Of a stretch of DNA of 64,000 nucleotides, positions 35,241 through 63,302 are shown one piece after another; within the stretch, counting starts at the first letter, position 1; every line of letters begins with the position of its first letter. The translations under genes were made by a program, and so were the position numbers. The notes under the pieces were generated by a model that was not told the origin of the DNA, did not search any database, and saw nothing but the letters and a program-made list of their open reading frames with translations. This stretch comes from Paralichthys olivaceus (Eukaryota > Chordata > Actinopteri > Pleuronectiformes > Paralichthyidae): NCBI RefSeq assembly GCF_024713975.1, contig NC_091112.1, positions 1,902,001 to 1,966,000 of the forward strand, given 5' to 3'.

Positions 35241-38200
35241 TTTTCATTTATTTGATTTGATCTCAAATATTTACTAATTAATCAAACATGTGATCAATAG
35301 ATTTTAATTTTTTAACAAGTAAAAATCTGAAATGTTTTGTGAAGTTTCTTAAATATTAGAGTTTGTTGCTTCTCTTACTTTCTGATGAATTAAATACAGT
35401 GACAGACATTTTCACAACTTTCTGATATTTGCTTCAGTTTAAACAAGTGATTGATTCATTAACAAAATCCAGAATCAACAACGAGCAGAATGATTAGTTT
35501 GAACCTGAAATATATCAAATCAACAGTAGAGCAGCAGATTCATGTCACTGTGCTGACCACAGTGTGTCCACAAAATAAGACACACACCAGAGAATCACAC
35601 GTTGGATTAGATTTACCCAAACACAGTGTCAAAGCCAGAAGACATTTATATACTGTAGTGCAGAAGAAGACATTTATTACTGGATCAGCAGAAAATAATC
35701 TTTATCAACAACTGTGAATTTGGTGTGAGCAGTAAACTGTGTGGATGGATGTGTTATGGGTCAGAGAAGAACTTTAAATTCAGCTGCAGATCAGGAGCTG
35801 ATCCAGGAATATTTTCTATCTCTTTAGCTTTTTCAACATTTTCCTTGATTTCCCAGAGTAACTCATGGATCTTGTTCAAAAATAAGATGTTCAGTGACTG
35901 ATATTTATGAGTTTGTGCAACTTGGTCATAAAAACGTGTCTCTAGTGAATTTAAATGTGTTTTCATGAGGTGAGTGTTGGGCCTTGGTGGAGGTTTGTAC
36001 TGGACTGAGTGATGTTCTAGTTTGATGCTACAGAAACCTGGGGGTGGGGTTTATTATTGACAGACTGACTCCCGATTGGTCGAGCGTGTGTACCAGCGAG
36101 ACCTCGGTACCTTTGCTCCATAACCGATCGCTCTGGATGACAGCGTTCATATCTGTTGTATTTTGGCTTCGTTCCTGGACAGTGGGAGGAAGTGGAGACG
36201 TGTCGTCCATCTTTATAAACAGTCATGGTCTGTTGCTGCTGCTCACATGATGTCACCACCTTCAGCAGAGCAGATGAACTGTGTGTGTGTGTGTGTGTGA
36301 GTCTGTGTGTGTGTGTGTGTGTGATGAAGATGTGTAATAACAGCTCAGATCTCTGTCTCTCTCTCAGGTGTCCACATTTTCCAGAAGATGGCTGGCTGTG
36401 AATGGGACGATGAGACTGAAGAAGTTAAAAGTTATCTTCAGGGTGCTTATGATGGAGAAGACTTGATATCATTTGACCTGGAGACAGAGACGTGGATCGC
36501 TCAAAGACCACAGGCTGTTATCATCAAACTGCAGTTGGATAATAATAAAGCTCAACTTGCAGATTTTAAGAACACCTTAACCCAGGAGTGTCCTTACTGG
36601 CTGAAGATATTCGTGGAGCATGGGAAGAGCTTTCTGCTGAGAACAGGTGAAATCACATAACCTCCATGAACATGATGTTCCTCTTTCATTTCTTACTCTG
36701 TGGCATCACAGTGAACGAGAGCAGATACACAGACACCTGCTGTGACTCAGTTTGTTCACTTTCTATCATCATCGCTGTCTCTCTCTCTCCTTCCCTCCTT
36801 TCTCTCTCTCTCTCTCTCTGTCTGTCTCTCTCTCTTTCTCACTCTCTCTCCCTCTCCTTCCCTCCTTTCTGTCTCTCTCTCAATTCAATAAGCTTTATTG
36901 GCATGACTGTGTATTACAATATTGCCAAAGCGTTAAAATATAAAAATAAAATAATACAAAACAATGTATTATTTTAGCAAAATAATAAATTATACATCAA
37001 TTACAACTATACTTTAAATCAATTAAAACTATACTATACATGAATAAAACTATACTATACATGAATAAAACTATACATTAATAAAACTATACTATACATT
37101 AACAAAACTATACTATACATCAATAAAACTATACTATACATGAATAAAACTATACTATACATGAATAAAACTATACTATACATGAATAAAACTATACTAT
37201 ACATGAATAAAACTGTACTATATATCAATTTAAATAAGGTGTGTATCATACAGAGGTAATTATTACAGAACAGTATCTATCTAATGATCAGTATTTTCAT
37301 CAGTGAGCTGGTTGTTGTGCAGCTTTTCTCTTCTCCTGTGACAGACACTCACATATTTTACAGCTTCTACAGCAGTGGCACTTTTTTCTCCCAGTAGATG
37401 ATGTAGTAGTTTGGTCTGAGAGTTTGTCAAAATTTGGGGTTGTGTGTGTAAAGTGAGTGTAGAGCTGTGTTCTGATGTCTGTGTATGTGTCACAGTGCAG
37501 CAGGAAGTGCTGCTCTGTCTCTACCTGTCTGTGTGGACAGAGCAGACACAGCCACGTCTGTCTGTGTCGGCCTCTCTCTAAGGCCAGGCTGTGGTTGCTG
37601 AGTCTGTACATAGTCAACGTTTTCCTCAGTCTGGGGTCAGTGACAGAGCTCAGATAATCTGCCATGGAGTATTGTCTGTTTAGGGACAAATAGCATTGGG
37701 GTTTGCTTTGGGTTTTGGTTGCAGATGTCCAATAGTTGATGGAATTGTCTTTTTCTTTAGTTATAATTTGGTGGGGCCGGATTGTGTGAGGACGGTCTGG
37801 GTGCCCTGTGCTGTTGGAGCTGAGCCGGTGGACCAGCTGGCTGAGAAAGAAAAATCTCTCTCTCTCTCTCTCTCTCTCCTTCTCCTTCTCCTTCTCTCTC
37901 TCTCTCTCACTGCTCTTTTTATGCCTCTGCTCTGGCGACACCTAGTGTCCGTTGGCATTATGTTCTGGGGTCGTCCGTCCGTCCCATCACTGTGAACACG
38001 ATATCTCCAGAATGTCTTTAGAGAATTTCCTCAGATTTGGTGCAAACATTCACTTTGACTCAAGGATTAACTCACTTGATTTTTGTAGCCAAAGGTCAAA
38101 GGTCAAGGTCACGGTGGCCTCACAAAGTATGTTTATGTTTTTCTTGAACATGATGTCATCAGATCAGCTTCAGATTTGGTACAAACGTTCACTTGGACTC

Positions 38201-41305: not shown

Positions 41306-41767
41306 TCTTTGTGATTCAATGTGTAGAAAAGTTGAACACATCTGTGAAAGCTCAAATGTTCATTATTGAGACACACTCACCTGGACAGGTCCATCATAGA
41401 CAGTCAGACCAGACAACATGCGGATGTGAACCACTTCAGGTAATGATGTGACACTTCTGGTCTCCTTCTTGTGGCCCAAACAAAATGGATGTGATTCTAA
41501 AGTTGCCCACTTGTAAAATAATATCACAAAACAAATTCAAGGTTGACTTGTGACCCAGATCTGGTGAAAAAGGAGCAGAACACCCAAGTGCCATCATTCC
41601 CCACCGCATGTGGGCCGATGTGGGATGTGAGGGATGAAGGTCGAATCTGGACCAAAACAGTTTTCCTGTGTAGGATTGTTCATCAGCTGAAAACCACAAG
41701 TCATGAGCATGAATGATCCTGTGGTTGTGGACCTCTGCTCTTCATTCAACACAAACACATCCTCACG

Positions 41768-41862
41768 ACCAGAACTTTACTTTCACTTCCGTTAATTACC
41801 TCAGTTGGTTCACCTGGATTTAAGTGACGTCGAGGCTGATCCTGAATTCTCATTGGCTCAGG
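41768..41862 (+). promoter_or_regulatory. MHC class I promoter module, copy 6
   Basis: ISRE-like block near 41,773-41,790, intact TGACGTC at 41,825-41,831 and an inverted CCAAT at 41,849-41,859. The promoter looks as complete as those of copies 2 and 3 despite the damaged 3' end of the gene. Confidence 0.7.
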
Positions 41863-41992
41863 TGATGTCCCCTCCTCTCTGTGTGTCCTCTTATCTCGTT
41901 GTTTTTGTCTCTGGAGCCACAGTCCGTCTCTCTGTGGACAGAAGACCTCATCTACCTTCAGTCCAGCAAAGAGAAATATAGCACCGCTCACA

Positions 41993-43536
41993 ATGCACAC
42001 TTTACTTTTCCTGCTTCTACTGGCAGGAACACACAGCGCGACGGCAAGTGAGTTCTAGTTTCTACTTGATTTGATTTGAAATGAAAGACAAATGCTCCGT
42101 GTATTTAAAAGACACTTCAATGATTTGAAGGTCTGTTGTAATGTTGGATGTTTGGTTCCTTCAGATTTTAGAAGTTGAATAAAGTTTCAAAGAGCTGATT
42201 TCAAAGTTCATGTTAGTAAATGTCATGGATCTCATGTAAGAAGGAACGCTTCTGTTCTCTTTCTGAAAAGCTGAACTGAAAAGTGACTTTTCTTTTTCTT
42301 TCTTCTGATCCGGACCATTAGTTGATTTCGTCCTCTGATCAGAACCATTAAGATCGACACGGTCCGAGCTGGTTCTGGACAAAATGACGCAACGATTCTG
42401 CAAAAAGTCCAACAGACTCCGATAAATCAAGAAACAGTGAAACAGTGAAACACGAAGCAACGTTTCAACTCAGCGAGAAAACCAAGAGTTTCTTGTCTGT
42501 TCTAAACATTATGAACTTGATTATTTCACTGAGTTCCTCATCACGTGTCTCGTGTTTCATGTTGGTTTATAACAAGTTGTGGAGAAATAACAGGTTCAGT
42601 CTGTTGATATGAATCAAGACTGTTATTGATGTAAATACATATATTTGAACATCTGTTTAATGGTCGATGATTCATTTCCCATCAAACACCTCAATTATTC
42701 ATCTAAACTGGCTCAACTGACAAATAAGGCGACGACTCAGTTCTGGTTTTTATTGTGGTCAGTTGGTGGCGCTGTTTCCATAGATACAGAAAGTGCTGAG
42801 GACAAACAGCTTCCTGCTTTGTTGGTTCAATATTCAACCTCATTTAGGCATAAAGACCGTGAGTAACATGACTGACATGACACATTACTAATGAATGATC
42901 TGTTATCAATGTGACCTCCTACTCCAATACCATCAACACAAATTATTACTAACACACAACACAAATTCATCTAGAATGTAAATGATAGAAGTGAAAAGAA
43001 GCAGGGAGACAAAGACTCATGATGAGGCTGCCTCCATAATGAAGAAATGACAGATGTCTGTTCATACTTTCTAATGTGATCACATCTGCACTAAAGCCTG
43101 ACTGCTTGATATGAGTCTGTCTCAGATATGAAGGTATCAGTGTTTGTGTTGGTCCATATGCACCAATTTTATTTGTGCACAATAAACAAAGAAGATGTGC
43201 ATTTATCTTTACATTTTAAAACATGGATACAAACATACATGTTTATTTTCTTCATTCAAGTTCTGTTTGGTCATATTTGTGTTTTCTTTGTATTATTATT
43301 ACAGTTCTAGTTATTTATCATGAATCTAATGGTTTAACATTTAAACATAAAGTCTCAGTTACATGTCTTTGTCATAAGTATTTGACATTAACATCTTTGG
43401 AATCAGTGCCAAACATACATATTAAAAAATCTACATTCTATACATTTAAAACACAGTCAAGCCCTTCCTGTAACAACGTCACACTTTGTTTTGTTAGCTG
43501 GGTCCAGTATAAATGTATATGTGTATATATGGAGGA

Positions 43537-43569: not shown

Positions 43570-44610
43570 GACTGAGAGAAACCACTAACAGCTCATATGT
43601 TGTGTTCAAAATGTTCATGATTTCACAATCTGAATTTTGAATATGATAATGAGGACTTTCAGAATAAATGTCTCATGTAGTAACTGGAAATTGAAGTAGT
43701 TTTCACTTCACATTAAATTCTCTGCAGTAGAAAATATTATTTTCTCATATTAAATCTTTGAGTCGTTAGATTGAATCCATGTTTAAGACGTAGAATTCAA
43801 AGTAAAGAGTGTCTGGACTCTGGAGCAGACGTTTTATCTCTCAATGTATTTTTGTGTTTGTTTACCACACAACAGAGATGCTGAAGTTGTGTTGAATGTG
43901 CTTCATGTGTTCTTGACTCTGAGTGCAGTGATTTATTAAACATTCTGAAAACTAAAGTCACTTTAACTTTTTCTTGCAGGGACTCACTCTCTGAAGTATT
44001 TCGACACTGGGTCCTCTCAAGTCCCAAACTTTCCAGAGTTTGTGTCTGTTGGTTATGTTGATGAAGTTCAGATGATTCACTATGACAGCAACACAAAGAA
44101 AGTAGAACCCAAACAGGACTGGATGTTGAAGGCAACAGATTCACATTACTGGGAGAGGGAGACTCAGAACTATTTGGGTTATCAGCAGATCTTTAAAGTC
44201 AACATTGAAACCGCAAAGGAACGCTTCAACCAGACTGGAGGTTTGTTTATGTTTCAATAATAATAATAATAACAACACACACACACACTCACATTTTCAT
44301 TTATTTGATTTGATCTCAAATATTTACTAATTAATTAAACATGTGATCAATAGATTGTAATACAAAACCTGGGGGTGGGGTTTATTATTGACAGACTGAC
44401 TCCCGATTGGTCGAGCGTGTGTACCAGCGAGACCTCGGTACCTTTGCTCCATAACCGATCGCTCTGGATGACAGCGTTCATATCTGTTGTATTTTGGCTT
44501 CGTTCCTGGACAGTGGGAGGAAGTGGAGACGTGTCGTCCATCTTTATAAACAGTCATGGCCTGTTGCTGCTGCTCACATGATGTCATCACCTTCAACAGA
44601 GCAGATGAAC

Positions 44611-44649: not shown

Positions 44650-47069
44650 GGATAATAACAGCTCAGATCTCTGTCTCTCTCTCAGGTGTCCACATTGTCC
44701 AGCGGATGGTCGGCTGTGAATGGGACGATGAGACTGGAGAAGTTAAAGGTTATCGTCAGGGTGCTTATGATGGAGAAGACTTCATATCATTGGACCTGGA
44801 GACAGAGACGTGGATCGCTCATAGACCACAGGCTGTTATCACCAAACTGAAGTGGGATAATGAGAAAGCTGATCTTGCACATCTTAAGAACTACTTAACC
44901 CAGGAGTGTCCTGACTGGCTGAAGAAGTACCTGGAGCATGGAAAGAGCTCTCTGCTGAGAACAGGTGAAATCACATAACCTCCATGAACATGATGTTCCT
45001 CTTTCATTCCTTACTCTGTGGCATCACAGTGAACGAGAGCAGATACACAGACACCTGCTGTGACTCAGTTTGTTCACTTTCTATCATCATCGCTCTGTCT
45101 CTCTCTCTCTGTCTCTCTCTCTCTCTCTCTCTGGAGTGTGGTGGAGTGTGTGTGAGCTGAGAGCTGGTTGTGGTTTGTTAGCGTAGTTATGGACCTCACC
45201 AAGCTAACCAGAATTAAGATCGCGCCGGGCTTCCCTTGCACGGTGGAGGACTGCAGCTTGGCAGTGGGGGTGGTGGTGGGACACAGCAGTGTTGAGTCCG
45301 CTGCTAGAATGAACAACGTGGTTGTCATTTTTCTAGACATCGCAGAGAAGGTGAACATGGTGGGATTGAAGTGAACGATATGTTCGTTTCTGTTCTCGCC
45401 TCTCGCCACGCTGGTGGTTAAAGTCACTTTATCGAACGTCCCCCCGTTTGTCCCCCCGAGATGAGACACTGATAAGAGAACTATCGAGACATGGTAAGAT
45501 AGTGTCTCAGTTAAGGAAAGTGTCCTCTGGTTGTAAATCTCCTCTGTTGAAGCATGTGGTGTCGCACATAAGACAGCTCCACATGATTCTGGACAACAGC
45601 AGTGAGGAGCTGAACCTGGTGTTCAAGATCAGAGTGGAGGAGTTTGATTACATTATCTTTGTTACTTCAAACAACACAAAGTGTTTCAGCTGTGGACAGG
45701 AAGGACACCAAATTAAAGCATGTCCACTGAAAAATAAAGCAGCTGACAATCAGGAAGGACAGGAGGAGACAGGTGGGGTCCAGCAGGTGAGTGAGGGGGG
45801 ACAGGAGGGGACAGGTGAGGTCCAGCAGGTGAGTCAGGTGAGTGTGGGGGGGACCGGCAGAGATAAGTGAGGTACAGCAGGTGAGTGATATTGACATAGA
45901 GGGAGACGAGGAGGTGCTTAAAGTTCCTCGTCTAAAAAGAAAAACCAGGAGCAACAGTGGAAGCTCACAGGCAAGAAAAGAACAGTGAAGAAAGGAGGGA
46001 GAGGAGCAGCAGAGACTGAGTCCAACATGGAGACAGTCTCTGCTGACAGGGAATCCTCTGACTTCTGTTGGTGGTGAGGGCGAAGGTCGAGCATTTTAAC
46101 TTTGTTTTTATAAATGTCTACGCTCCGGTCTAAGGACCCAACAGAGTCTGTTTTTCCACCCCAGTGTCTTTGCATCACTTCAGCCTCTGTCTCGCTCACA
46201 TCTCACAGTTCTTCACTTGTCTCGTATATGAACAGACATGACTGATGCTAAATCAATGGAATCAAACAGGAATGGTATTATTAGTATACAATACATTAGA
46301 ATGACCCATAAACTGTCTTTCTTCTTTCTCCCCAGAGCTTCCCTCGATGTCTCTCCTCCAGAAGTCTCCCTCCTCTCCAGTCAGCTGCCACGCTACAGGT
46401 TTCTACCCCGACTCAGCCATGTTGTTCTGGAGGAAAGACGGAGAGGAGCTTCATGAGGACGTGTACGTCGGAGAGGTCCTCCCCAACCATGACGGGACCT
46501 TCCAGATGAGCGCTGACCTGCAGGTTTCATCAATCCCACCTGAAGACTGGAGGAGGTACGACTGTGTGTTCCAGATCTCTGGTGTGAAGGAGGACATCGT
46601 CAAAACACTGGACAAAGACTCAGTGGAGTCCAACAGAGGTGAGACTTGAGTCAGTGATGACGGTGGGAAACACATGTTTCATTTCCACTAACAGTCCTGC
46701 AGGTCATGTATGCTGACGTGTAGCAGGAGAAGTTTTCTCTCTGTTGGTTTTGGGTCATTTTCTTTCTTCAGTTTTTATCAATAAATTTAGATCAGTGTTA
46801 AAAACAACAGCCGGACAAAGAAACAGGTTGATTGTCTGTGTGTGTTTGTTGTGTCTATTGTACAGGATTGTGGTTCAGGGAGATTGTTGTCGTCTAACCT
46901 GCTTCATCTGTTCAGGTTGTGATGCTTTGTTTTTTTATTCCACTCAACAGAGAAGCCCACTGACGTGACCACCACCACCATCATCATCATCGCTGCAGTG
47001 GTCGCTCTCGCTGTCGTCCTCGCTGTCACTGGATTCATCGTGTACAGGAAGAGGCAGTGGCAGATTTAG
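41993..47069 (+). CDS. MHC class I heavy chain, copy 6 (type A, 3' end replaced by transposon)
   Basis: Exons are 41993-42047, 43980-44240, 44686-44964, 46336-46638 and 46951-47069, giving 338 aa. The groove is the most classical of the six: Y7, Y59 (HYW), R84, NQT at 86, T143, K146, W147 (ITKLKW), Y159 (NYL) and Y171 (KKYLEHG). Alpha3 is intact, with one further change (QMSADL). The transmembrane exon is in frame, but after YRKR it continues directly into a hAT-like terminal repeat, adding QWQI and a TAG stop at 47067-47069. The normal donor and both tail exons are absent. Intron 3 holds a Tx1-like LINE fragment. It may be a pseudogene, or a functional membrane chain with a shortened tail; expression needs a polyadenylation signal inside or beyond the element (an AATAAA is at 47578-47583). 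Confidence 0.8.
43539..43568. repeat. TA microsatellite, intron 1 of copy 6
   Basis: TA tract equivalent to that in the other copies. Confidence 0.88.
44367..44600 (-). mobile_element. Interspersed repeat insertion in intron 2 of copy 6
   Basis: Nearly identical to 36,042-36,275 of copy 5 at the homologous junction (AAACCTG). Copy 6 has lost the upstream LINE-like fragment, so intron 2 is short here. Confidence 0.6.
45132..46157 (+). mobile_element. Tx1-like LINE fragment (ORF1 and start of ORF2) in intron 3 of copy 6
   Basis: Broken frames match the ORF1 typical of teleost Tx1/L1-group elements: IKIAPGFPCTVEDCSLAVG and VVGHSSVESAARMNNVVVIF around 45,207-45,345, then ELSRHGKIVSQLRKV, GCKSPLLKHVVSH and a CCHC knuckle (CFSCGQEGHQIKAC) at about 45,475-45,725. 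At 46,070-46,145 a frame reads VVRAKVEHFNFVFINVYAP, the start of the ORF2 endonuclease. Internal stops and frameshifts make it inactive. The 3' end is cut: ordinary intron 3 sequence resumes at about 46,158. Confidence 0.8.
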
Positions 47070-47919
47070 CAATTTGGGGCCCAAGGCGAACACAGGCATG
47101 GGGCCCTCTGCACATGTTGTTCTCCATCTGTTTTCAATCCTTATTTATCAAAGAAAGTTCTACTTGTAACTTCTTCCCAACCCAACAAAACATATTAACA
47201 GTTTAACAAATGCACTCACAGTAAAATCTTATTTTCATAAACAATATGATCTCTTTACAATAAGAATGAACCATATTGTCCATTCTCACGGAAGATCTGA
47301 CGTCTATAAGTGTGGTTTTCAGCAGGATCTCTGATTAAGTTGATGATAGGCCTCTGTCTTATATCTTGTTTAATTAAGGGAGAAGACAACACACAAGGAA
47401 ATAGGAGGTAAATTATGGAGTAACATAAAAAATAACAACATGTACTTTTTACCATTTCTCTTTGTCCCTGCGTTCGCGCACACAAACACATTTTCAGTGA
47501 AACAGAGAAACACAAAGTTCATCTGATCACAGCTGCTTCATGATCAGAGCAGAAGCTGCAGTTTTAACTTATGAACTAATAAACACTCATCACTAGTTAC
47601 CAGGACCTGATCAGTCTGAAGGAACTCTGTGTTAGTTTGCTCATTACAACATGAGAGGCGACACACACAGGACTCAGTGTTGAAGTGACCGGAGCGACAC
47701 AGATTCATGATCTGACTCCATCGATTAATAACTAAACACATGATCATCATCTGAATAATCCGATAAAAACCAGAACAATTGAGCTGAACTAGTTGAACGG
47801 GTTCAACGCTTCTCGTCAGTCTCTGTTTACATCCTGAATCACCTCCGTGATTGGGGCCCCTGGTAGCTCGGGGCCCAAGGCAATTGCCGTCCATTGCCTA
47901 ATGGTTAAGTCCGCCTCTT
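47055..47919. mobile_element. hAT-like non-autonomous DNA transposon
   Basis: The left end CAGTGGCAGATTTAGC (47055) and the right end (GTTAAGTCCGCCTCTT, to 47919) are imperfect inverted repeats (about 11 of 16 positions). Subterminal GGGGCCCAAGGC blocks lie near both ends (about 47,077 and 47,871). This resembles a common teleost hAT family. No transposase frame is seen. The flanking 8-mers (47047-47054 and 47920-47927) do not match, so either the target duplication decayed or the right flank was exchanged. The left end lies inside the copy 6 transmembrane exon. Confidence 0.65.
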
Positions 47920-47927
47920 TTATGTTT

Positions 47928-48206
47928 TCGCAGCAGCAGCCAGCAGGAACCAGCAGGAACCAGCAGGAACCAGCAGCAGCAGCAGCAGCAGCAGGAACCA
48001 GCAGGAGCAGCAGGAGCAGGAACCAGCAGGAACCAGCAGCAGCAGCAGGAGGAGCAGCAGCAGGAACCAGCAGCAGCAGGAGCAGGAACCAGCAGGAGCC
48101 AGCAGCAGGAGCCAGCAGCAGCAGCAGGAGGAGCAGCAGCAGGAGGAGCAGCAGCAGGAACCAGCAGCAGCAGCAGGAACCACCAGCAGCAGCAGCAGCA
48201 GCAGGA

Positions 48207-48240
<34 letters not shown>

Positions 48241-48707
48241 ACCAGCAGCAGCAGCAGCAGGGACCAGCAGCAGCGGGACCAGCAGCAGCAGCAGCAGCAG
48301 CAGCAGGGACCAGCAGGAGCAGCAGCAGCAGGAACCAGCAGCAGCAGCAGCAGCAGGAACCAGCAGCAGCAGCAGCAGGAACCAGCAGCAGGAACCAGCA
48401 GGAGCAGCAGCAGCAGGAACCAGCAGCAGCAGCAGCAGGAACCAGCAGCAGGAGCAGCAGCAGCAGGAACCAGCAGCAGCAGCAGCAGCAGCAGGAACCA
48501 GCAGCAGCAGCAGCAGCAGCAGGAACCAGCAGGAGCAGCAGCAGGAACCAGCAGCAGCAGCAGCAGCAACAGCAGGAACCAGCAGGAGCAGCAGCAGCAG
48601 CAGCAGGAGCCAGCAGCAGCAGCAGGAGCAGCAGCAGGAGCCAGCAGGAGCAGCAGTAGGAGCCAGCAGGAGCAGCAGCAGGAGCCAGCAGGAGCAGCAG
48701 CAGCATC
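47928..48707. repeat. CAG-rich GC minisatellite
   Basis: About 780 bp built from CAGCAG runs interspersed with GAACCAGCAG and GAGCAG modules. It makes long spurious Ala/Cys/Leu or Gln/Ser open frames on both strands. It marks the end of homology with the MHC array. Confidence 0.9.
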
Positions 48708-49600
48708 ACATCTGTGAAACAGTTTTTCATAGTAGCTGATATTTTAGGAAAAGTCATCTGATCAGAAGTGTCGCTGCTGTTGTTGGATTCAAGTATCTGC
48801 TAGTGGTATATTTAAGATATGCCACTTTTTCAACTTTGGGAAGAACAAACTGACAAGAAGGAGCAGCGAGATGAATAATATAAAATCATGGAGAGAAGTT
48901 TTCTAGCACATTTTAAACTTACAGTTCCCAAAATCACTTGTTCAGCACAGTTTCTGCAGCTTCGTTATATTTGATAACACACCGAGGCTTCTTAACTTTA
49001 GCAGCTTCATCAAAGTATCTCAGAATAAAACGCTTTGACTTTTGAGAGAAAAATTTCAGTTTGATATTTCATCTTATTGAAAAATGTAGTCATTCTGTAT
49101 ATTTACACTCTGAGCCACTGTTCATTCAAACCACACAGGTCGTTTTTGTTTGTTACATCGACGTTCAAAGTGTCTTTTCTGTTATTTCAGGTGCGACTCC
49201 GCTGACTGAAACTTTTGGGAGAAATAAAAAAGGCATTCAAAAAAAAAAAATACACTTGCATTGACAGTTATTGTAAAAAATCTTTTAGTCCTTAGACTGG
49301 ATATGATGACAGCAGATTGACGATTTTTTATTTAATTATCAATATTTATATGATAAATTTAATTCATTAAATTATTACGTGCATTTTTTTCTGGTATCAA
49401 ACCTATTGATTATTATTTTTTTTGTAAATTATTTCATTGATACACGAATCAGGGAAAATAATGTGAATTGGACAAAATCTATTTTTTCCAAGTAATCTGG
49501 TGAATATTTATATATTTTGAATTGCTGCAGATGTTCTCTCATCTTATCAAACCAGTTCAACACAGTGTGAAGACGCAGAGAGACACTGATACTCTCCCTC
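48708..49600. other. Unassigned AT-rich sequence
   Basis: No exon with supporting splice sites, RNA gene or repeat is recognised. It contains an A-run near 49,240 and generally AT-rich DNA. It separates the minisatellite from the CpG-richer segment to the right. Confidence 0.5.
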
Positions 49601-50004
49601 ATCTACTCAATCAAATTACCGATAATCGATGAACTTCGGGTTTATCGATCAGCGCACACTGGACACCGTGCACGCGTAACGATCACGATCACGATGGCCT
49701 GAGGTGAAACTGCAAATTGCTCGTGCATGTGGCTCAGAGCCAGAATCCACGAGTCTTACCGAAGCGGCCCGAGCACCGCCGAGCTCCAATGGATCCAGAA
49801 ACACGACATGAGCCGAAACTCCCGAGCTGCTCCCCCCGCTGAAGTGAGCTGTTGTCGGGGTGAGGGGGACGAAGGAGGACGACATTAATGACATTTATAT
49901 TTTTTCTCTTTTTTAAAAAAAAAGGTGATTTCCAGCATCCATCGCTCCTCAGCTCCTCCCAGTCCTCCCAGGGTTTTTCATTCCGGATCAGAGGCGTGAG
50001 AAAG
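49600..50004 (+). promoter_or_regulatory. CpG-richer segment with possible non-coding first exon of the Ig-domain gene
   Basis: CpG content rises compared with the neighbours (ACGCGTAACGATCACGATC near 49,673). A purine-rich stretch ends in a good donor (GAAAG|GTAAGA at 50005) that could splice to the acceptor before 53,669. The segment is open on the opposite strand too, which fits CG-rich non-coding DNA. The assignment rests only on position and one donor. Confidence 0.35.
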
Positions 50005-50879
50005 GTAAGATGATCGTCACCATCAAACACTTGTACATGTAAGGCGGATTTCTTGTGCTCAGTGTTGGGCTCACAGGGAGACACAGGGTTAAATCCTGCA
50101 GTTTTGCCTCTCTGTGTTTTAATGGAGCTCCTCTGATGCTCACATTCAGGGCGTGTTACCCACGGCAACGAGGCGAGAGTGGGATGCTGGATGCTGGAGG
50201 GCAGCATCCTCCGGCGGGGAGAACAATGAACGGCCCCCGCACATGTAAAGCCTAGTTTATGTAACACAGGTTCAACTGTAGGAATTCCCCTCAAACAGGA
50301 GTATAGACTAGACATATAGAGGATAGACGTTCAATTGTAAGCCTCCTCTTTTCTGCCAGTTTTTAGGTTGAATGTATTTCCTCTCATCTTTATTGTAAAC
50401 ACCATGCTCACAGATATGACCATATCATAATGATATAGTTGATGATAAAATAATAATGTCTATGAATGTTGCTGTGGTGCAGGATCAGGTCATACATTTG
50501 GGATATACCCATTTATTAAGGGGGTATTTTCTGGTCCATCCCCGTGGAAATGGTTACGCAATGTACTGGCACACATCCGAGCTGCTGACTAAGTGGATTA
50601 ATAACCGTTCACACATTTATTCCTGCACATTTTTCATCTCGTGGCATCATGTCTGACTGACCCTCTTTCTTTCTGTCATCATTCAACTCTCATCCTCCTC
50701 CACCCCCCCCACCTCTCGTTTTCCTCCATCTTCCATCCGGACATCCCCAGCTGTAACGGGATAGCCCCCATTCATGGTGACACACCCTTGGTTGCACCAG
50801 CAGCTGCCTGCGTAACGGGTGAGGAGGGGGAGAAAAGAAAGGGAGAGAGATGAGGTGGAGTTAGAGGAGGGGGACTGGT

Positions 50880-50930
50880 GCAGAAGAGGAGAGTGTGTGT
50901 GTGTGTGTGTGTGTGTGTGGGGGGGGAAAC
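50880..50930. repeat. TG microsatellite with G run
   Basis: A GT repeat followed by eight G, within the putative intron 1 of the Ig-domain gene. Confidence 0.85.
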
Positions 50931-50938
50931 CCACTTTT

Positions 50939-51003
50939 AAAGTCACACTGATTTTATCATCTTTAGAGTTAAGATTGTAGCATTGAGTTTACTACTTTCG
51001 ATC
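50939..51003. repeat. Direct repeat, left copy
   Basis: About 64 bp containing AGTCACACTGATTTTATCAT and ending TTACTACTTTCGATC. It recurs at 52,712-52,775 with a few differences. Confidence 0.85.
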
Positions 51004-51402
51004 CTCTGGTTAAAATAATGAATGAACAGTCACGTGATGAATGAGGGGAATCTCGCAGGGTGAAGGATTGAAGCTTTTTCTGTAGACGGATGACGTCTGA
51101 AGCAGAAGTATTTATTCTTGACACCGGGGATGAAGCTGATGTGCAGTCACAGTGGCCACATATCATCACCGGTCATGTTGAGTTAAAGATTATCTTGAAG
51201 TCACCCTGTGTTAGAGAGGCCCCGAAATAAGATGATGTGCAGGAATAAAAAGTGAAATCAAACCATCATATCCACTGTGGGCGACACGTGACTGTAAGAG
51301 TTATTTTATATAACGGCAGCACAAGCCCAGTATATGCCTCCGGGGAAATTGTTGAAAATATAAAAAAACAAACAACGCCCCTCAGGATGTTACAGAGTGA
51401 GA

Positions 51403-51545
51403 AATCTGGATTCCTGGGTTTGCCCTCTCAATCGAATCCACTCCAAAATGCAATGGGTTCTTTCTTGACCCTTGTTCTTCCCTTTCATCAAGTTTCAACA
51501 AAATCAGTTGTGCAGTTTTTGCACAATCCTGCTAGAAGACGAACA
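51403..51545 (+). mobile_element. LINE 3'-end fragment (RTE-like)
   Basis: Landmarks TCCACTCCAAAATGCAATGG, TTCATCAAGTTTCAACAAAA and CAGTTTTTGCACAATCCTGC match the 3' end of a widespread teleost LINE. An A-run follows at about 51,567. Confidence 0.6.
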
Positions 51546-51819
51546 GAGATGAAGACATAACCTCGTAAAAAAAAAAAAAGCCAGAGAGAAGCAGAAAGAT
51601 GAGAGAGATGATATTGTAACAGGAGGAGGATGGAGGCGTGTTGTTCTAGATCCCACGGGGGTCAAGCGGGCAAGTGGTACAGTGAGGTAGATGGAAGAAG
51701 AAGACCTGAGAGTTCCATGTAAGGTATAGAGTGTCCGCATATGAACTTCGGGGCTTCTTGGATGACACCACACGAGCAGCATGGAGGCATGCTATGCTTC
51801 TTTTTTTTTTTTTACATTT

Positions 51820-51905
51820 GAGAAATGTTGTCCAGATGTACATTAAAATCTCCCAGCAATATTATGTTAGGGGAGAGTGAGCACAAACGGATAAGAAACG
51901 TTTAT
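51820..51905 (-). mobile_element. Possible LINE endonuclease remnant
   Basis: On the - strand a short frame reads NIILLGDFNVHLDN, which matches the LLGDFN motif of non-LTR retrotransposon endonucleases. Flanking sequence does not extend the match, so this is a short relic at best. Confidence 0.45.
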
Positions 51906-52711
51906 TGGGGGGGTGACGAGCTGAGGACCAGATGGATTTTATTGGGTGGGAGTCATCGAAGTGAAAGATCCACGGTGGATATTTCTGACCGTGGATGTCG
52001 GGATGATGTCATGTAAAAGCTCCTCGCCTCTCACGATGAAGCTGCTGGATGTTTCACCTCAGTTAATGTTTCGCCTCGTACAGCTCGACTGGTGTAATTG
52101 GTCATAACGAGAGACAGGGGGGCAGTGACCCCATTAAACTTCTGAGATGGACATGGTGCCCTCAGTCAATGGACAGCAGAGACATCCAGCTTCTTATGCT
52201 GATGCTTTTATCAGGGACAACAGTCGACTATTAGATTTCTCACATTTAATCGCAGCACCTGCTTTTTAAAATCAGTGACACCAGCAAACGCAGCTGCATC
52301 GCTTCAGTTTTTATCACATCCAAATCTGTGGTGTCTGCGTTTGTGTTGTTTGACACAAAGTTTTGTTTCAAGTTTTGTAGTTTTGTAGTGTCGTGCTTTT
52401 CCCTGTTATTGTGATAAACCCGTGTTTTTCTTCAAATGCATGAAGATGATATATACGGATTTGTGGCCACTACAGGAGCAAAGTACATTTTTATGTCATA
52501 AAAACTCAAAAGATGGAGGAAGAATGTTTTCAAAATTTGACAGCTGACCGAAAATATTAGATTGTTGAATCTTGGAGCTCCTTCCTTCATTTTAGCATAG
52601 GCCTCTACATAACCTTAGGTAGCCTTGTTAGTAAAAGCAGTTTACTCTGAGTGAATACAGTTCATGTGTTCGTTTGTCAATGACACGCAATGGGACTAAT
52701 TATGAAGTATT

Positions 52712-52775
52712 AAGGTCACACTGATTTATCATCGTTAGAGTTAAGATTGTAGCATTGAGTTTACTACTTTCGATC
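52712..52775. repeat. Direct repeat, right copy
   Basis: Partner of 50,939-51,003. The 1.7 kb between them holds the LINE relics at 51,403-51,545 and 51,820-51,905. Confidence 0.85.
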
Positions 52776-53684
52776 ACACACACTTGACTATTGATTAATA
52801 TTTATATAATCAGCAGCAGCCTCTCATTTTCTCCTCAGATGTAGTTTCTTTCTTCCCATGAATCAAACCTGAGCTTCATATGTTTGCGCTGCCTGAGCAC
52901 TCACACATGCAATAAGATAATGGCTCTGTAGATAATTGGAGCGAATGGTTCACAGTGCAGCAACTAGAGAATATGCTGTGATTACCGTCTTCCGCTTGAG
53001 GACTAAGAGCCTCTTGAGCAATTGTTCTGCCCACTTTATTGTTGGGGCGTCATTTTTGAAGTGGCTTTGTGTCAGAGAGAAGGTAGATGGGCTTTCTTCT
53101 TGTTCTTTTAAAAAGAAATAACACTCTAATCTCTTATCTTAAGATCCTGGCAGAAAATGTTTTTTTATTGCTCTCTCTTTCACAGTCTATAGATTCAGTG
53201 CTCATGGATGCAAACAGATTTTTGAGTCAAATGCATCAGCAGGATTTTGGTAAATGTTCATTTTTGTTTCTGTGTTTATGTTCAGTTAGTCTACACATTA
53301 AAACAACACTACAGCTGCTTTAACACATGCACTGAACTCTGGAGATCCTTTGCAGTTTCCCCAGAAGAGGTGTAAATTGGAGATGCAGCTTTTGTAAATT
53401 ATGATCCGAAGTTGTGAACAGACTGCCGATAGATATCAACAAACACAAGGTAGTTATTATAATGAAACATGAATTGAACACTAATTTTACATATTTACCT
53501 GACTTACTTATAACTTAAACTCTTTCAAAGAAAAACAAAGAACTATTGGTCATTTTCATTTATTTTCTCGCAATTAGTAAATATGTCTTTTTGAACCCTG
53601 ATTTATTTGTACCTTAGGAAACAATCATTTAAATTGTTTTGTATTGTGTATGTGTTTCTCTTTTGCAGAGAACGTCTATTCAGG

Positions 53685-56600
53685 ATGAAAGTAATCAGCG
53701 CTGCAGTGCTGAGCGCTGTGTTCTGCATGGGTAAGCACAAACATAATCAGTCATCCGGGAGCAGTTCAGATAAATGAACGGCAGAAACAGACTTCATGCA
53801 AAACCAAACGTGCTTCAGCTGAACAATTAACATAGACACAGTGAGAAGGGCTTCAAAGAAACAAACTTATTTTGTTATCTGTTAATTTCCTCTTATTTGC
53901 TTTGTTTCCTTTTCTTATGAGGCTTCAGATTGTATTTACATCCGGTCTATATTTAGCTGTCGTTACGTGATACATTTACATTTGAAAGGTTTTTGTGCTT
54001 CTGGGAGTAGTTGTGTGGTTTTTCACTCAGAACAAAGGGACCCTGGTCTTTGTTCAAATCAAGAGACAACTAAGAAAAGATGTATTTTAAAATACGCTCC
54101 TCTTTATCTTTTCTTTCGCAGTTGTGTCAGCGTCCGTGACAGGTAAAACCTCTCCCTGTTGGGCTTGCAGTGCATGACTAAGAGAAAGTAAATCAGAAAT
54201 CAAAGATTATCTGTCCTATGTGATCATATATGGGGACGTTAAACGTTAATGCCTGGGACCCCTGATGGTTTGTTGGGCCTGGGGAGGCCTCTTCGATGGG
54301 AGGTGGGGGGTTGGGTTTCCTCAGTTTTGTTTGTAGGATAATTGCTTTATAACCAAAGTCAGATTGATTGAACATATCCTGATTGCTTGCACCAGTCAAA
54401 GAGGAACGCAGGACAGCGTTCTTTGGGGAAGACATTCACATGGATGTCCCGCCTGGAAACGCTGGAGACGTCGTGTTCAAGCCCAGGACCAATCAGTCCT
54501 CTGATGTGGATCTGATGCGACATGGCCAGGTGGTGAACCCACGGGCCCGTCTCAACTTCCTGGGCCACCTGGTGCTAGAGGACGTACAGGAGGAGGACGA
54601 GGGCGTGTACGTCATCAAGAACAGCAACAACCCCAACACAGTCAAGCAGCTCGTCCTTATCATTCGGGGTAAGCTGTCTGCTGAGCATGACAAAGTGTGA
54701 AATTGAAATGGACCCTTCTGGAGAAATGCAGAAATCAAACGTATACAAATAAGAAGCTCATTTTCTCATCAGGCTGTATTTTATTGAGGTGTTACCTGAA
54801 GAGTGTTGCTTTGGAAACCAATGGAAACGTGAAAATTCAAGACTCAAATATGGTGTGAATAATACGTTATTTGTGAGATCATGAAAAACCATGTGTAAGT
54901 CTGAGTGTATTACTGAAGGCCTATTTGTTATATAACATCACAGAGAAGCAGGATTAGTTAAAACCGTACAGTGTATATAAAGATGGACGACGGGTCTCTG
55001 CCACCATACGTTGTTAAAGGAAGAAATTATCGAGTTCCTGCTGATGCACGTGTTCAGCCAATCGTGAGTCAGTAACAAACGAGAACAGCAGTCAGTGGAG
55101 TTCATACCTCCACCAAGGCACAACAGACCCCTTACAAAAACAAAGTCAAACTCACTAGATCCATCAACAACATGTTTTTGCTGTCACGTCATCCGTCTTT
55201 ACATGTACATAGATACAGTCTCTGAATAAAACAATGATTCATACAACCACCCCTCAGACTGCGCCTTGGAGCAAGTGGTGAAGTACGGAGAAACCTTCTA
55301 CATCCGCCTTAACCACATCGAAGGCCCCATCACCCTGGAGTTCAGGTACAGTCAGATTCAGAATCTATTCAACAGCGACTCATGTTTATTACACATTGTT
55401 GGGCTGGAGACGGATGCTCCGAATCAGCTTCAGTTAGAAGAAATATATACATCTGTTGCATTGCTTCCCCTTTTGGAACAAGTTTCGACTGTATGGTTCC
55501 TGTTGAACAAACAAATCAAAGACTGAACCGGAATTACACTTGGTGGAGCGCATACCTCTGTCAAGGCCCAGCTGTTGCTTAAGTTAAAGGCCTAATGAAT
55601 CCACATCATCTCAGCCACAAATTGGTTTAAGTGACAAGTTTCTAGCCCCATTTGTTTCTTAACAGCAGCTTCAAATCCCACTCTCTTACTAAACCAGGAA
55701 TCCGCCAGAGCTGGATTTTGATTTTCATCCGCACCAAATTGCACACACTCATAAATATCACTATTATTTTCAGCATTAAGATGTGAAACTCCTGCTCTGA
55801 CATGCTAACCACACTGGTGGTTGATGGGTTGCTCTGTATAACATCTTCAATACATTTTGTACCATGACAAGGCCCAGTCTGATTCAGTCCAATCAAACCG
55901 AGATACAGCAAACTACAGAGCCTCTGCCCGTGGTGCTGTACAACCAGACGGCGGTGTCGGCGGACGAATACGTGGGACGCCTGAGTGTGACGGAGAAACT
56001 GGTGACTCTGCACTTGGTCCGGATGACGGACGAGGGGAGCTTTACAGTACTGGACCACGAGGGCAAAATCAGGAAGAGGAACTGTCTTAATGTCAGAGGT
56101 GAGCAGTGATCGAGTGCTGATTTAAGTGACTAATCTATCAGTCTTGTGTGTTGGTGTATACATGCTGCTGTAATGTGAGTGTTGGTCTACAGACACTGAC
56201 GGCATTGTTTCATTCTTGAGTGAATTACCTGCAAAAATCCTTTAATCTCTGAAGTTTTTATTTTATTTTAATTTAAATTAGGGGTTAGGACAGTTGGCAG
56301 GGAAACTAAACTGCTGCAGCTGTAAAGACATGGTTTTCACCAAAATGCATCAAGAGCACATTAACTTTAATAAAAGTTATTCTCTACTCGCACGATGTAG
56401 TGTGACGTAATTCCACTTTCCACACTGCCCATCGGTTCACTTCCCTTCCACCCCAGACTGTTACTCTCGCATCCAACTTGATCTCCACAGTGTCTCCTTG
56501 TGCTTCAGAATTTATTTCACTCTCACAGTTAACTTTGTATATATCGTAAATAGTATCTACTGTTCGTTTTTTCTATATAGAGTGATAGAACGTGATATAC

Positions 56601-59600
56601 GAGATATGTGTTCCGCAGACGGACAGACAGACAGACAGAAGGATACACAGATATTTGTGGAATTAGGTGGATTAAATAAAGCTGAGATTGACCAACACAT
56701 GTTTCACTTTGCTGAATATGTGTCCAATAAAAAATATAAAAAAGTTTAATGACCCACGTGTGTTTATATTTCCTCCGATTGTCCTCCACAGAGCACCAGA
56801 ACTTCATGCGCCTCTCCTACGGAGAAAACCTAAAGATGAAACTCTACCTGCACCACTCCAACGTTAACATCGTCTACAAGCCCAAATCAGACAATAAGGA
56901 CAGAGTCATCCTGGACCAGGGGGTTCTGGTGATGCCGATAGATCCTCTGCTGGAGGGCAGGCTGACAGTGGAGGGGTCGGAGCTCATCATGAAGAAGGTC
57001 CAAATGGCGGACAGCGGCATCTTCAGAGTGACAGACCTCGCCGGGTTTCCTGTGGCTCAGGTCGATATAGAAGTAGAGGGTAAGAAAAATACCTATAATG
57101 GATTTAGTTCTGTAGTTGCTTTGTTGTGAGCCAACACATTTCCTATGCAAAGTGCCTCTGAGGTGTAGATTGTGTTTTTGAAAGGGTTTATGTGAGTGAG
57201 ATGATATTACAACTGTTATTAAGTATTTATGCAAAGAGGCTGATACACCCTGTGACTGTGCCAAACAAAGCTTATGAGCGAACAAATTTAGTCTTTCATA
57301 TTATGGTCTTTCTTGATTAGATCACAATTATACTTCTCTATTTTGTCATCTATTATCTGTTAATACACCAGGCTCCACTTATGAGCACCTGCAGGAGGAG
57401 ATAAAGTTATTGATGTTTTTATGAGATGACGTTACATCACCGGTTTAGCAATTGACTGAAGACTGAAAAAGACCGGAGTCACGCTGCCTGTTTATTCAAA
57501 TCTAATTCATATTCAATGTATCGCATGTCCGAAGCTGCACCAAGTTCCACACTGCGCTTCTTTGGGCTCTTAACAATATACATGGTGCAAGTGTGCAGCA
57601 GTGAAGATAAACAGTTGTCAAGATATGTGAGCCACAATAAGACAGACAGAGACTTCTGGAAGTTATACATACATGCATTCAAATAAAATGTTACTAATAA
57701 ATTAAAAACAACCGATTCTAGATATATCCAAAATGACTATTTATATTTCATTTCAAAGTTTCAGCTATAGTGTCAAGCTGTCCATATATATTTAGGAATG
57801 ACTAACGTGCATTGAAATCTGATTGTGTGATGTTTCGATATCTAAAGCTGTATGGGAAGTCTTTATGTGGTAACTGCTCCAGTCAAACACACCTGCTGAT
57901 GAAAACGTTTCAAAAAGAGGCTGTAATGAAAGATGAGTAGCTGCACAGCAAAGTCAGTGAATTCAGAATGGACGTCGTCCCTGGCTATTAGAGAAAAGAT
58001 TTATTATTTCTCTTTCCTGTCCTCGTCTTGCTCTCAGCCTACAAGCTGCCTCGCCTGACCGTGGCCATTCTCTGCATGCTGTGTCTGATCGCCTTCATGC
58101 TGCTGGTGTGTCTGCTGTCCTGCCTCTACAAAGTGCACAAGAGGAACAAAAAGAACAAAAAGCTCATGCTCATTGCGCAGCAGGCTGGCAAGGGCGATGG
58201 CGATGCTTTCAGACAGGTAACACCCACCCAGTGCAATTACCATCATTCTGAGAAAACAATTTTGACTCATCCTCACTGATATTTGATTTTGTGGAAATTT
58301 TCATGGCTGAGGACGGTTCAGGGAAACGTCATGTGTTGCTTTCCAGGTGTCCTGCGTACGTCCACAGAGCCGGCGCTCATATCTTGTCCTTGATGTGAGC
58401 TTGTCATTATTAGAAGCAGAGTTTTACAATCTAGAATGTCACTTCTTTCATTTTTAATGACGTACGAGCCAAAGTTGCGGTCTCAGGTCTGGCAGCAAGG
58501 GGGTGCAATCGCAGATAATTATAGCATTTTGGCACCAGATATTTTTGCATCAGGTTTCGGAAACTGCAGGGAACTCATGATTAGTCAACATGAAAATGCT
58601 TTTTTATTTGCCTTTGTAAAAAGAAATCATGAGTTCATTTTAGCCCCCTGGGTGTTTCTAGAACACCAAGCACCCGGTGTGTTTGAATCGGTGATAGAAT
58701 GAAAGCATGTTTTAAGACGGCTGATTTACAAAAACTGTTGCGGCTCCATCCTCACTCAGTCAGTTGTGAATGAATCGCTGTAATGATGAATGGATTATCA
58801 GGGTCCTCTGAGGTTGTGCTGAGCCCACAGGAACAAAATAAATAAAAAAACATTGATCCCTTTCTAGTTGGCCATTTAAAAACTGCTGCTCTTTCTTCAT
58901 TCAGCGGCTCAATACTGTCTGATTAACTGACTGATTGGATGATTTAGAGGAGTTGACAGTTAACCCCTCTGTCAACGCAACCATCCATCAAGCAACCCCA
59001 GTTGGGGATTTGTTAACCAACTGAATTTATGGAGCAATTAAAAACCCATTAGAAATAGATGACTCACCTATAGAGGACACACAAACATCACGGTCCGATA
59101 TTGATTTCTCTACCGAGAAAAAGGAGTTCAATACAACAACAACAACAACAACAAGTGGCACAAGAAATATGTCTGGATCAATTGTGTAAGAGTTTCATAA
59201 AAATAAAAAACCTTGGCTGTCAGAGTGAAGAATAAATACGTCTGTCATCAAGTGATGCCATTAAAGCAAGTGGGCCTAATTTGCCATTGGACTTCTAATT
59301 TAAACAAACTAAATTATCTTGAAGAGCGTTCCTGTTCTAAAATGATGACTGTTTCATTAGAAATCTAAATCACTGAGCTGACAGTGAACCCCTTCCTACC
59401 GAAGCAGCGGTCCCATTGAAAGATCGTTTAATCTGATTGAATTTATGAACCAATTAAAAACGCCCACGGCGGTCACATGACTGTGAAACAGCCCGAAAAG
59501 ACTGAAAGTGGACGATGATGATGAGACGGCAGCAATGACTCAAACTCGTCTGAGCCAGAGAAAAAAGCTGACTGAGCCCGACCCTGCAGTTATCACTGAC

Positions 59601-62600
59601 TCATCGAGATATTAAGTTTGCCACCGAGTCCGAGTGTGCAACATGTCGTGATCCACTTGAAACGTATCTTTGAGGAGTTGTCACACAGCTACCTGGCTCC
59701 AATCTGGAGCTTTTGTCAGCGACTTCCAAAACTCGTCTGCAGCTGAAAAATAGAAATCATGTGCTGTAATTGATGTAATGTAATTTCAGAGTTATCAGTG
59801 TAGACTGATGCTGAACATTTTCTTTAGTATTTGTCTGTGAAGTCACATTAATGTTACCTGTTTCTCTTTTTTTTTACTTTGTGTCTGAAATGATAAATGT
59901 TTGTCCTGTTTCTGATGTTTATGTGACGTTCGTCTTTCAATTTCACAACTGTTGAGTGAATTCTAAATACTGCTGTTGGAAATGAGGCCTCCCGGCTCAG
60001 TGATGATTGGTGGCCCAGCTAACGCTGTTGCCTGTGGTTACGTGTCTCCCTCTTGCTTTAAGGAGCCTCAAACGGAGCCTCTTCTTGGTGAGAGAATTGT
60101 GTTCCTGCCTCCTTTCCCCCTGAACCTCCCTCTTTATATTGGTGTGTAGAGAAACGTGCTGCGTTTGTGACAAATAAGTTCATTGATCAACTTGCTGCTT
60201 GTGACAGTTTCAGAAATGTGTTGTCAGTATTTTCTGAACTCCGGTGCTTGTAGTTGATCTAAATGAATCGAGGATACTGAGCAGCGCCACATTAGATAAA
60301 TCCTGGACACTGAGGAGAAACTGCTCGTGATGAACAAGCAGAAGTTGATCAGAGACCTCATTTGACTCAAAGTCAATGGATGACTTCAAGTGAATCTGGC
60401 AACATGACTTGGGACAAACTGTGTCCGTGATCCTGACAGACTTTAGAATAATCACGTGGCCGAGCTGTGGTGGAGAATTAATGTAGGATGCAAGTTTATA
60501 CAGTGTTTTATTGTTTTAAAGGAGACATATGATGCTTTTTCAAGGTTTCATTCCTCTAATGTGTGATATAGTTTATTGTGTGAATGTATAAGTTCTGCAA
60601 AGTCCGTGGTAAAGGGAGCTCCTCTCCCCCGCAGAAAACACTGAAGCTCCTGAAACACCACGTCAGTCGTCCCGTTGAAGCAAAGCGTTTCTGACAGAGG
60701 ATGACAAAAGGAGCTGCAGCAGTGGACAGATAATAGCACAAATTCAAATTATCAACCTGGATGTGAGCAGAATATGTCTCCTTTAAGTGCCTTGAGGTCA
60801 ATGACTTTTAAAATCAGAATGTTGGTATTTTCCACATTAAAACAACTGAGAACAATTGTAATGAGTTAAGTTTCCACATTATATTCAAATGAATGGACAC
60901 CAAGGGTTTTCAAAAATCATTGTTAGTCTGTGTATTTGTAAACAAAAGAAGATGGATATCAGTGTAAGTTTAGTTCTTCTTCTTTGGTTGGTGTATAAGT
61001 GAGGGTCAACCAACGTCAACATGCATCAGTCTTCTTCTTTTCTTGAGCTTAGTTGAAACAGATGAGACCATTTATATGCTAGAGCAGAATTGTAAACACT
61101 ATTTTGCTTCGATGAGCTCGGTCAGGTGTGAGAAATGTCTTTATTCTCAGCTGTTTCCTTGAGAGTTGTGATCAACTACGTGCCCAGGAAGTCTGTGGGT
61201 GTGTTGTCAGTGCTTCTTATGTCTGTGTCTAGTTTCTGTGGATTTAATGTTGTGTGTCTGTGTTGTAGTTTTTTTAGTAATGCGAACAAATCAATCAACA
61301 CGTGACCTGAAACACTGTGTACTATAACATTATTTTTACATTTATTCCCATTTATTGTTGTTAGTTACCAAAATACACCATAACTCACATTTCAGTGACT
61401 AATCATGATTCTTCCAGCTCTTAACTTAAGCAGTTAGCAGTTATTAATTATTACACCGGGCAAACTTTATTTTCTGGGTTTACTAACATAAAACATATTC
61501 TGTTTGCATATATATATATATATATATATATCAATGTATATGGATCGCCCCCTGGTGGCTTGCTGCAGTATAGGTCATAAACCCCTCCTCCTCCACATTA
61601 GCAGATGGAACAGATGTTTAAATATTTGACTGGATAAGTGAAAAGCCTGGGGATCACTGACGTCTGTGATTAATTCTGGTAAAAACACTGGAAGATTCGT
61701 AACTTCAAATAAAAACCGTGTGAGTTTTCCATTACCACTGATCAATGTGGGATAAATGTCTCGCTCATTGTATGTGTCTGTATTAGACATGTGTGTTTGT
61801 GTGTCCTCACGTGTTTTTAAGTGATTATACTGCGATGTATGTGCATAGGTGTTCCAATTATCGTGTGTGTCTCTCTGTGTGTGTGGACTAAGGTTGAGAT
61901 GACGGCAGTTTCCCTTGGCGTCGGTCGATCGGACAGGTTATGGATTTCCTCGTAGATCTTAGAACACACACACAACACATGTGAGCCGATGTCGGCGGCC
62001 GGAACTTAACCTGAGAGGCCGACATGAAACTCAGATCAATCCTCCCTCTCTGTCTCTTTATCATCTCTCTCCCTCCCTGCCTCTTCTCTGTGCATCTATA
62101 TCAGCTGCCTCACGTCTTCTCTTTCTGTCTCTCAATCCTTCACTCCTGTGTTGTCACTCTCTCCTCCTCACAATTTCTCACCCACCGAAATATAATCCAC
62201 ATTAGTGCTCCCTGCGAGCACACAGAATGATTTAATTTACTACTTTAATCATCCCAAACCTGCATCCCTTCATCCTCTCCCCCTGTCCTTTCATCCTTCT
62301 TCCCTCATTCTTACCTGCATGCCTTCATCCTCCTCTCCTCATCCCTTCATCCCCCCTTTCTCTTCCCTACTCACTTCTATTCATCATTCTTTCCTCATCC
62401 CTACCCACATCCTTTCATGCTCTACTCATTCTCTGCCTCTCATTCATGAATCCACCTCAACCCTTCATCTTTTCCTCTCCCACATTTATTCTTTGGACCT
62501 CCAGCCTCCACAAATCTTTCCTGCAGTTCCTAAGCCCCGACATTTTTGTAAGACCCGGCTCGGCTCTGCCTCCTCTCAACCTCCAGCCTCATTGCTCGTC

Positions 62601-62672
62601 TTTCAGTCATGTCATACAAGTGTCCTCTTCCATGTCTTATGTGTGTATGTAATTAAGAGCTTTCTTACCCTG

Positions 62673-62729
<57 letters not shown>

Positions 62730-62943: not shown

Positions 62944-62975
62944 GTCAGTGCTGGAACTAAAGTGAAGCCAACTCA

Positions 62976-63125: not shown

Positions 63126-63222
63126 CTCCAAATTATGTTAAAAGCACCGGTTCTTTTTATACGGCAGCATTTGACTGATGAATGAAATGCAGGTGGTTGA
63201 ATGAGTTGGCAGCAGACGGTCG

Positions 63223-63300: not shown

Positions 63301-63302
<2 letters not shown>

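Follow-up and report, generated by a model that had tools for sequence, protein, structure and literature searches.

The stretch of DNA analysed here, which we call the window, is 64,000 nucleotides from Paralichthys olivaceus (C20:1902001-1966000 in the searched genome of 588 Mb and 25 contigs). It contains six tandem MHC class I genes on the plus strand, with exons 2-5 of each placed by tblastn. Exons were joined with splice sites for copies 2-6; exon 1 and the promoter of copy 1 fall outside the window. In copies 2-5 there are seven coding exons, and YRKR is followed by a 33-residue cytoplasmic tail (NAEC...SETSS). Copy 6, the last of the six genes, has five exons against their seven. Its features are listed below.

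41645..41992, plus strand: promoter and 5' region of copy 6, with ISRE-like TTTACTTTCACTTCC, X2/CRE-like TGACGTCG and Y-box ATTGG
41993..42047, plus strand: exon 1, leader MHTLLFLLLLAGTHSATA, with ATG and a GCAA^gtgagt donor
43980..44240, plus strand: exon 2, alpha-1 domain, from tblastn and the exon join (Pfam MHC_I 3.1e-52 for alpha-1/2)
44686..44964, plus strand: exon 3, alpha-2 domain, from tblastn, the exon join and Pfam MHC_I
46336..46638, plus strand: exon 4, alpha-3 (C1-set) domain, from tblastn and the exon join (Pfam C1-set 8.7e-09)
46951..47069, plus strand: coding part of exon 5, with connecting peptide, transmembrane segment, YRKR, and QWQI-stop from the transposon
47047..47054, plus strand: GGAAGAGG, the presumed lone surviving copy of an 8-bp target site
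47055..47919, plus strand: putative non-autonomous hAT-type element, with its left end complete and T in place of G as its last base
47067..47069, plus strand: TAG stop codon, within the terminal inverted repeat
47578..47583, plus strand: AATAAA, a poly(A) signal belonging to the element family
47920..47929, plus strand: TTATGTTTTC, a possible 10-bp relic of MHC intron 5
47930..48705, plus strand: compound GCA microsatellite of 776 bp, at the array edge

With GT donors and AG acceptors at all four of its introns, copy 6 joins into one frame of 338 codons and a single stop, and no premature stop or frameshift interrupts the 1,017-base coding frame. The initial annotation of this DNA had taken the extracellular reading frame to be intact, and the single 338-aa frame confirms this. 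The microsatellite at 47930-48705 is a GCA/GGAACCA compound whose repeats give long open frames on each strand.

Exon 5 of copy 6 begins at 46,951 after caacag and tracks copies 1-5 as far as GGAAGAGG; aligned from the end of exon 4 up to that octamer, copy 6 is 98.3-99.3% identical to them. At the matching point in the exon copies 1-5 read AATG^gtgaga and then go on to the tail exons (joined in copies 2-5). Copy 6 instead reads CAG TGG CAG ATT TAG after ...GFIVYRKR (to 47,054), which is Q W Q I stop at 47,055-47,069, and exon 5 thereby enters the left end of the element, CAGTGGCAGATTTAG, in frame. The proposal that YRKR is followed by an in-frame terminal repeat giving QWQI-stop is correct to the base by the exon join and the alignment with copies 1-5. 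A genome search with 46,800-47,200 as the query (40 of 122 candidates scored) listed 20 transmembrane-exon places, copy 6 among them. The 19 others match the query up to base 239-255 and the element places match from base 244-256 onward, base 256 being 47,055. The element boundary at 47,055 is real, since it is fixed independently by this search and by the shared CAGTGG ends. We think it very probable that the anatomy is as described, with a terminal inverted repeat as the coding end and the native 3' end missing.

Elements of the hAT type have terminal inverted repeats that start with CAGNGG and make an 8-bp target-site duplication. The family of the copy 6 element has terminal inverted repeats with this start, and the right end in copy 6, ...AAGTCCGCCTCT, gives the reverse complement AGAGGCGGACTT, to be set beside the left end given above. 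A genome search with the element (40 of 494 candidates scored) led to 30 fetched loci, copy 6 included. CAGTGG is the exact start at 26 of the 29 others, and CTCTG is the finish at 13 of the 15 loci with an assigned right end, one (L022) having been placed by a pattern that requires CTCTG. The exact 16-mer CAGTGGCRGATTTAGC occurs at 32 places in the 588 Mb, copy 6 included, and its reversed control at none. For the 14 relatives with both ends assigned, and with small offsets allowed, the 8-bp duplications show 0-1 mismatch in seven (two are perfect) and 2-4 mismatches in the remaining seven. The ends and these duplications argue for a non-autonomous hAT-type element, and the earlier hAT-like assignment is probably right, with 8-bp duplications in several relatives and CAG...CTG ends. 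Scored with a matrix from 26 left flanks of the family, GGAAGAGG lies at the 98.5th percentile of window 8-mers, so by the family's own left flanks it appears to be a good target site. The AATAAA at 47,578 is present as the initial annotation stated, and the site is found in 13 of the 17 other loci whose alignment spans it (29 given; L039 spans it in part). Across the family the terminal repeat reads Q-W-R/Q-I-stop in the exon 5 frame.

One point needs correction. The MHC gene does not resume beyond the element: it lacks the rest of exon 5, exons 6-7 and its 3' end. We reject a plain insertion with the gene continuing past the element because the 2.6-kb downstream part of copy 5 has no match in 47,920-64,000 (blastn, 7-base words), and exons 6-7, the tail exons, were not found downstream of the element in the rest of the window. 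Copy 6 lacks the ordinary 33-residue tail made via exons 6-7; the transmembrane segment is kept and QWQI replaces the tail. Copy 6 is the exception among the 20 transmembrane-exon places listed: in the 19 others the match carries on into intron 5, although at one place on C18 it goes only some 20 bases before it is broken by a gap. No orphan tail at about 99% identity is present among the 50 matches listed (best 40 of 2172 candidates scored). A tail moved by inversion was rejected since the 11 other C20 copies at 98-100% all start inside the transmembrane exon, and a partial 91% piece at C20:1900297 is too diverged to be the displaced tail of copy 6. As far as the assembly and the matches listed show, the tail appears to be absent rather than moved. 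The 3' part of the gene is missing and not merely interrupted, so no splice route to a normal tail was found. Elsewhere on the contig, C20:1490394-1490642 holds a transmembrane exon and tail with no nearby alpha-2 match among the 20 listed, and may be a partial class I gene.

The last base of the copy 6 element is T instead of G, and the second target-site copy is absent; no 8-bp duplication was found at this element, GGAAGAGG and TTATGTTT differing at six of eight positions. The absent copy could be taken as a sign that the assembly has joined two unrelated places at 47,054, and near-identical tandem copies next to a 776-bp microsatellite are indeed hard to assemble. We consider such an artefact very improbable because a chimera is not expected to fall on a transposon terminal base, which is where this join sits, and it does so at a target-like octamer. 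The right flank after the microsatellite (48,720-50,600) has one match in the genome, itself; the window has no N runs; and an orphan tail, as noted, is not among the matches listed.

Elsewhere in the window the ten bases directly after the element, TTATGTTTTC, are found only in intron 5 of copies 1-5, each time at the site that lies 550 bp beyond GGAAGAGG, and the minus strand of the window has none. The chance of this match is about 0.7-1.7% by k-mer controls, and we regard the ten bases as suggestive of a relic of intron 5. At a class I paralogue on C18 (L059, C18:3189550-3190259) the gap in the match opens at the same intron 5 site, and other class I copies have a diverged repeat of this stretch nearby.

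The order of events that we infer is insertion first and right-side deletion second. A non-autonomous hAT element would have entered exon 5 at GGAAGAGG, in a young tandem copy of a teleost class I gene that is, by its motifs, presumably of U type. A deletion up to the GCA microsatellite would then have taken the right tip of the element, the second target-site copy and all 3' sequence of the gene, leaving the array edge at the microsatellite. Alternative transposition is a possible cause of the missing right flank, though not the one we favour. In the accessible text of PMC3744419, reversed-ends transposition of the maize hAT elements Ac/Ds leaves one terminus without a matching 8-bp duplication, beside duplications and deletions. 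In copy 6, however, it is the terminal base of the element that has changed, and end-joining after a deletion would account for this more readily.

The extracellular part of copy 6 is that of a class I chain, with an alpha-1/alpha-2 platform (PF00129, E 3.1e-52) and an alpha-3 C1-set domain (PF07654, E 8.7e-09), both above curated cut-offs. Among solved chains the nearest is 5h5z (E 2.5e-80; named MHC class I antigen), which we take to be from grass carp. Over 19 residues, the Kyte-Doolittle hydropathy of the transmembrane segment peaks at 3.02, compared with 3.62 for copy 5; YRKR comes next, followed by four residues where the tailed copies have 33. The initial annotation described a membrane-anchored chain without its normal tail, and this is what we would predict as well, since the transmembrane segment and basic residues are kept and QWQI replaces the tail. 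The product would be a 338-residue peptide-binding heavy chain that stays membrane-anchored, and the lack of a tail would most likely make a difference in trafficking or surface half-life and not in antigen binding. The 33-residue tails of copies 2-5 contain no YxxPhi or [DE]xxxL[LI] motif, so the loss of the tail may matter little.

It could be argued that the gene makes mainly a soluble molecule, a secreted class I chain produced by skipping exon 5 to a cryptic downstream acceptor or by using intron 4. According to the accessible text of PMC2846915, fish do have soluble class I molecules, and salmon ULA, ZBA and UHA1 are secreted by other routes. We find this improbable for copy 6. The exon 5 acceptor is kept, and a terminal exon needs no donor; intron 4 and exon 5 are 98.3-99.3% identical to those of copies with a normal exon 5; and the tail region of copy 5 is unmatched in 47,920-64,000.

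The accessible text of PMC2846915 defines a set of nine conserved peptide-anchor residues for fish class I. Copy 6 has YYYYRFTKW at these positions, with none of the nine different, as in classical (class Ia) U-lineage molecules. Departures number two in copy 1, seven in copy 2, one in copy 3 and eight in each of copies 4 and 5. The other five copies thus depart at one to eight of nine, so the anchors are not generally kept in the array, and the transposon-capped copy has the only full set among the six in the window. An alpha-2 search gave 20 matches, and 19 copies, copy 6 included, remain when a remote 35% hit (L079, one of nine different) is left out. Both domains are in view for 12 of the 19, and among these all nine anchors are found only in copy 6 and in a gene at C20:1822k (L066). 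The seven other copies have no alpha-1 in the fetched DNA; L069 matches at six of six visible positions, so more complete anchor sets are possible.

Copies 2, 4 and 5 (10865, 27457 and 36370) have intact tails and have lost seven or eight of the nine anchors, including K146/W147 to Q/L; judged by these residues, they look non-classical. Between the six copies, identity is only 82-95% in the alpha-1 and alpha-2 exons, while it is 98.8-99.5% in the final 1.2 kb of intron 1 and 99.3-100% in exon 4. Strong diversification appears to be confined to the groove exons of the array.

The ISRE/X2/Y promoter of copy 6 had been called intact, and it is identical to that of copy 3. Over 410 bp of promoter and exon 1 aligned for copies 2-6, the identity of copy 6 is 100% with copy 3 and 99.3% with copy 5, against 81.6% with copy 2 and 81.3% with copy 4. 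At the X2/CRE-like site of the promoter, copies 2, 3 and 6 have TGACGTCG, which is changed to TGACGTAG in copies 4 and 5. Having lost its donor, exon 5 would become the terminal exon and be read through the terminal inverted repeat to the QWQI-stop. A scan of 46,952-47,700 for the strong donor patterns GT[AG]AGT, GTAAG and GTGAG gave no match, and exon 5 is accordingly expected to serve as the last exon. Because a stop codon in the last exon does not normally trigger nonsense-mediated decay, we do not expect such decay for copy 6. Cleavage of the transcript would be possible at the element's own AATAAA, which is the likely RNA end signal for copy 6, and the loss of the native 3' end could lower its mRNA level. 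What we infer beyond this is transcription, use of the poly(A) signal, pairing with beta2m, surface display and altered trafficking.

The same locus can also be read as a dead gene at the array edge, a recent pseudogene whose tail, 3' UTR and terminator were removed by insertion and 3' deletion and whose frame has not decayed. The end of exon 5, exons 6-7 and everything beyond are lost, copy 6 is alone in such a state among the 20 transmembrane-exon places listed, and it has diverged little from its sisters. It has 2 singleton substitutions in 1158 columns of intron 1, 1 in 300 of exon 4 and 2 in 407 of intron 4 plus exon 5. The one in exon 4 is the only singleton in that exon among the six copies, and it changes an amino acid (T to A). 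There is no clear excess of singletons, and the non-coding DNA is about 99% identical to the sister copies. Either the event is young or the region has been homogenised. It is important to realize that this leaves little time for decay, so the intact frame is weak evidence of function, weaker than the initial annotation had supposed; an open frame would be expected even of a recently dead copy. Against a dead gene we would set the 1,017 bases of coding frame free of premature stops and frameshifts up to the transposon stop, the promoter identical to that of copy 3, the replacement stop and AATAAA supplied by the element, and the fully classical anchors. We take the dead gene seriously, at somewhat less than an even chance.

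In our own reading copy 6 may be a young class I gene of classical-like type, membrane-anchored but without a tail, and with a terminal exon made in part of transposon DNA. With expression included, and judged from sequence, we hold this at just short of an even chance. That the locus also functions, with the terminal repeat of a DNA transposon permanently established as the C-terminus of a classical-like antigen-presenting molecule and as the end of its transcript, seems to us rather unlikely. If it does function, copy 6 would be the one gene without a tail in an array where the tailed neighbours 2, 4 and 5 have lost most of their peptide anchors, and the element family, given its Q-W-R/Q-I-stop reading, would act as a portable stop-plus-poly(A) cassette.

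Tail-less class I, variable U tails, soluble salmon class I and a transposon-ended receptor are already known. Our literature search, with subscription papers mostly outside its reach, found no paper describing a class I gene whose C-terminus is a transposon end, and the apparent combination seen here, a DNA-transposon terminal repeat as the coding end of a class I gene whose native 3' end is missing, was not met in it. MICA*008 is class I-like and has its normal end replaced by new residues, as copy 6 does, but the cause is a frameshift in the transmembrane exon with no transposon, and the type of anchor is changed. HLA-G, like the predicted copy 6 product, is a class I chain that stays anchored in the membrane but ends shortly after the transmembrane segment, and its lost tail removes an endocytic motif and prolongs half-life, as the accessible text of PMC7698525 has it. 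However, the HLA-G stop is in its own exon 6, while the residues, stop and poly(A) signal of copy 6 come from a transposon, and the tails of the copy 6 paralogues have no YxxPhi or acidic-dileucine motif. The likeness is at most one of function and would not be a feature of shared descent.

In IL18R1-Short and similar transposon-terminated immune receptors an element supplies the transcript end and truncates the cytoplasmic side (accessible text of PMC13232192), as is proposed for copy 6. IL18R1-Short is an isoform that uses an intronic LINE2 poly(A) signal, according to the same text, whereas in copy 6 the terminal inverted repeat is itself coding and, with the normal 3' end missing, only the truncated form seems possible. 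In teleosts, class I tails of the U lineage vary, as in stickleback exon 7 and in cod, and sorting motifs in the tail have been proposed to steer trafficking (accessible text of PMC4364491). Those differences come from native exons; that of copy 6 comes from a transposon end. If copy 6 is expressed, an antigen-presenting molecule would owe its last coding sequence, its stop and the end of its transcript to a DNA transposon end, and we would have a natural tail-deletion experiment among closely related class I genes, with copy 3's promoter and full classical anchors. The role of the teleost class I tail would then be directly testable by comparing copy 6 with its neighbours.

Some minor features in and near the array are worth recording. 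Intron 3 of copy 6 has a CCHC zinc-knuckle-like stretch at 45650-45730 (CFSCGQEGHQIKACP), read by eye and probably a retroelement remnant. Arrays of a 21-bp unit (variants of TAAAACTATACTATACATGAA), very different in length, lie in intron 3 of copies 2, 4 and 5 (11444-12201, 28053-28148 and 36991-37229). Downstream of the array, at 54383-58279, there are open frames that resemble exons of an Ig-domain receptor with a transmembrane segment; they give one weak V-set hit, below cut-off.
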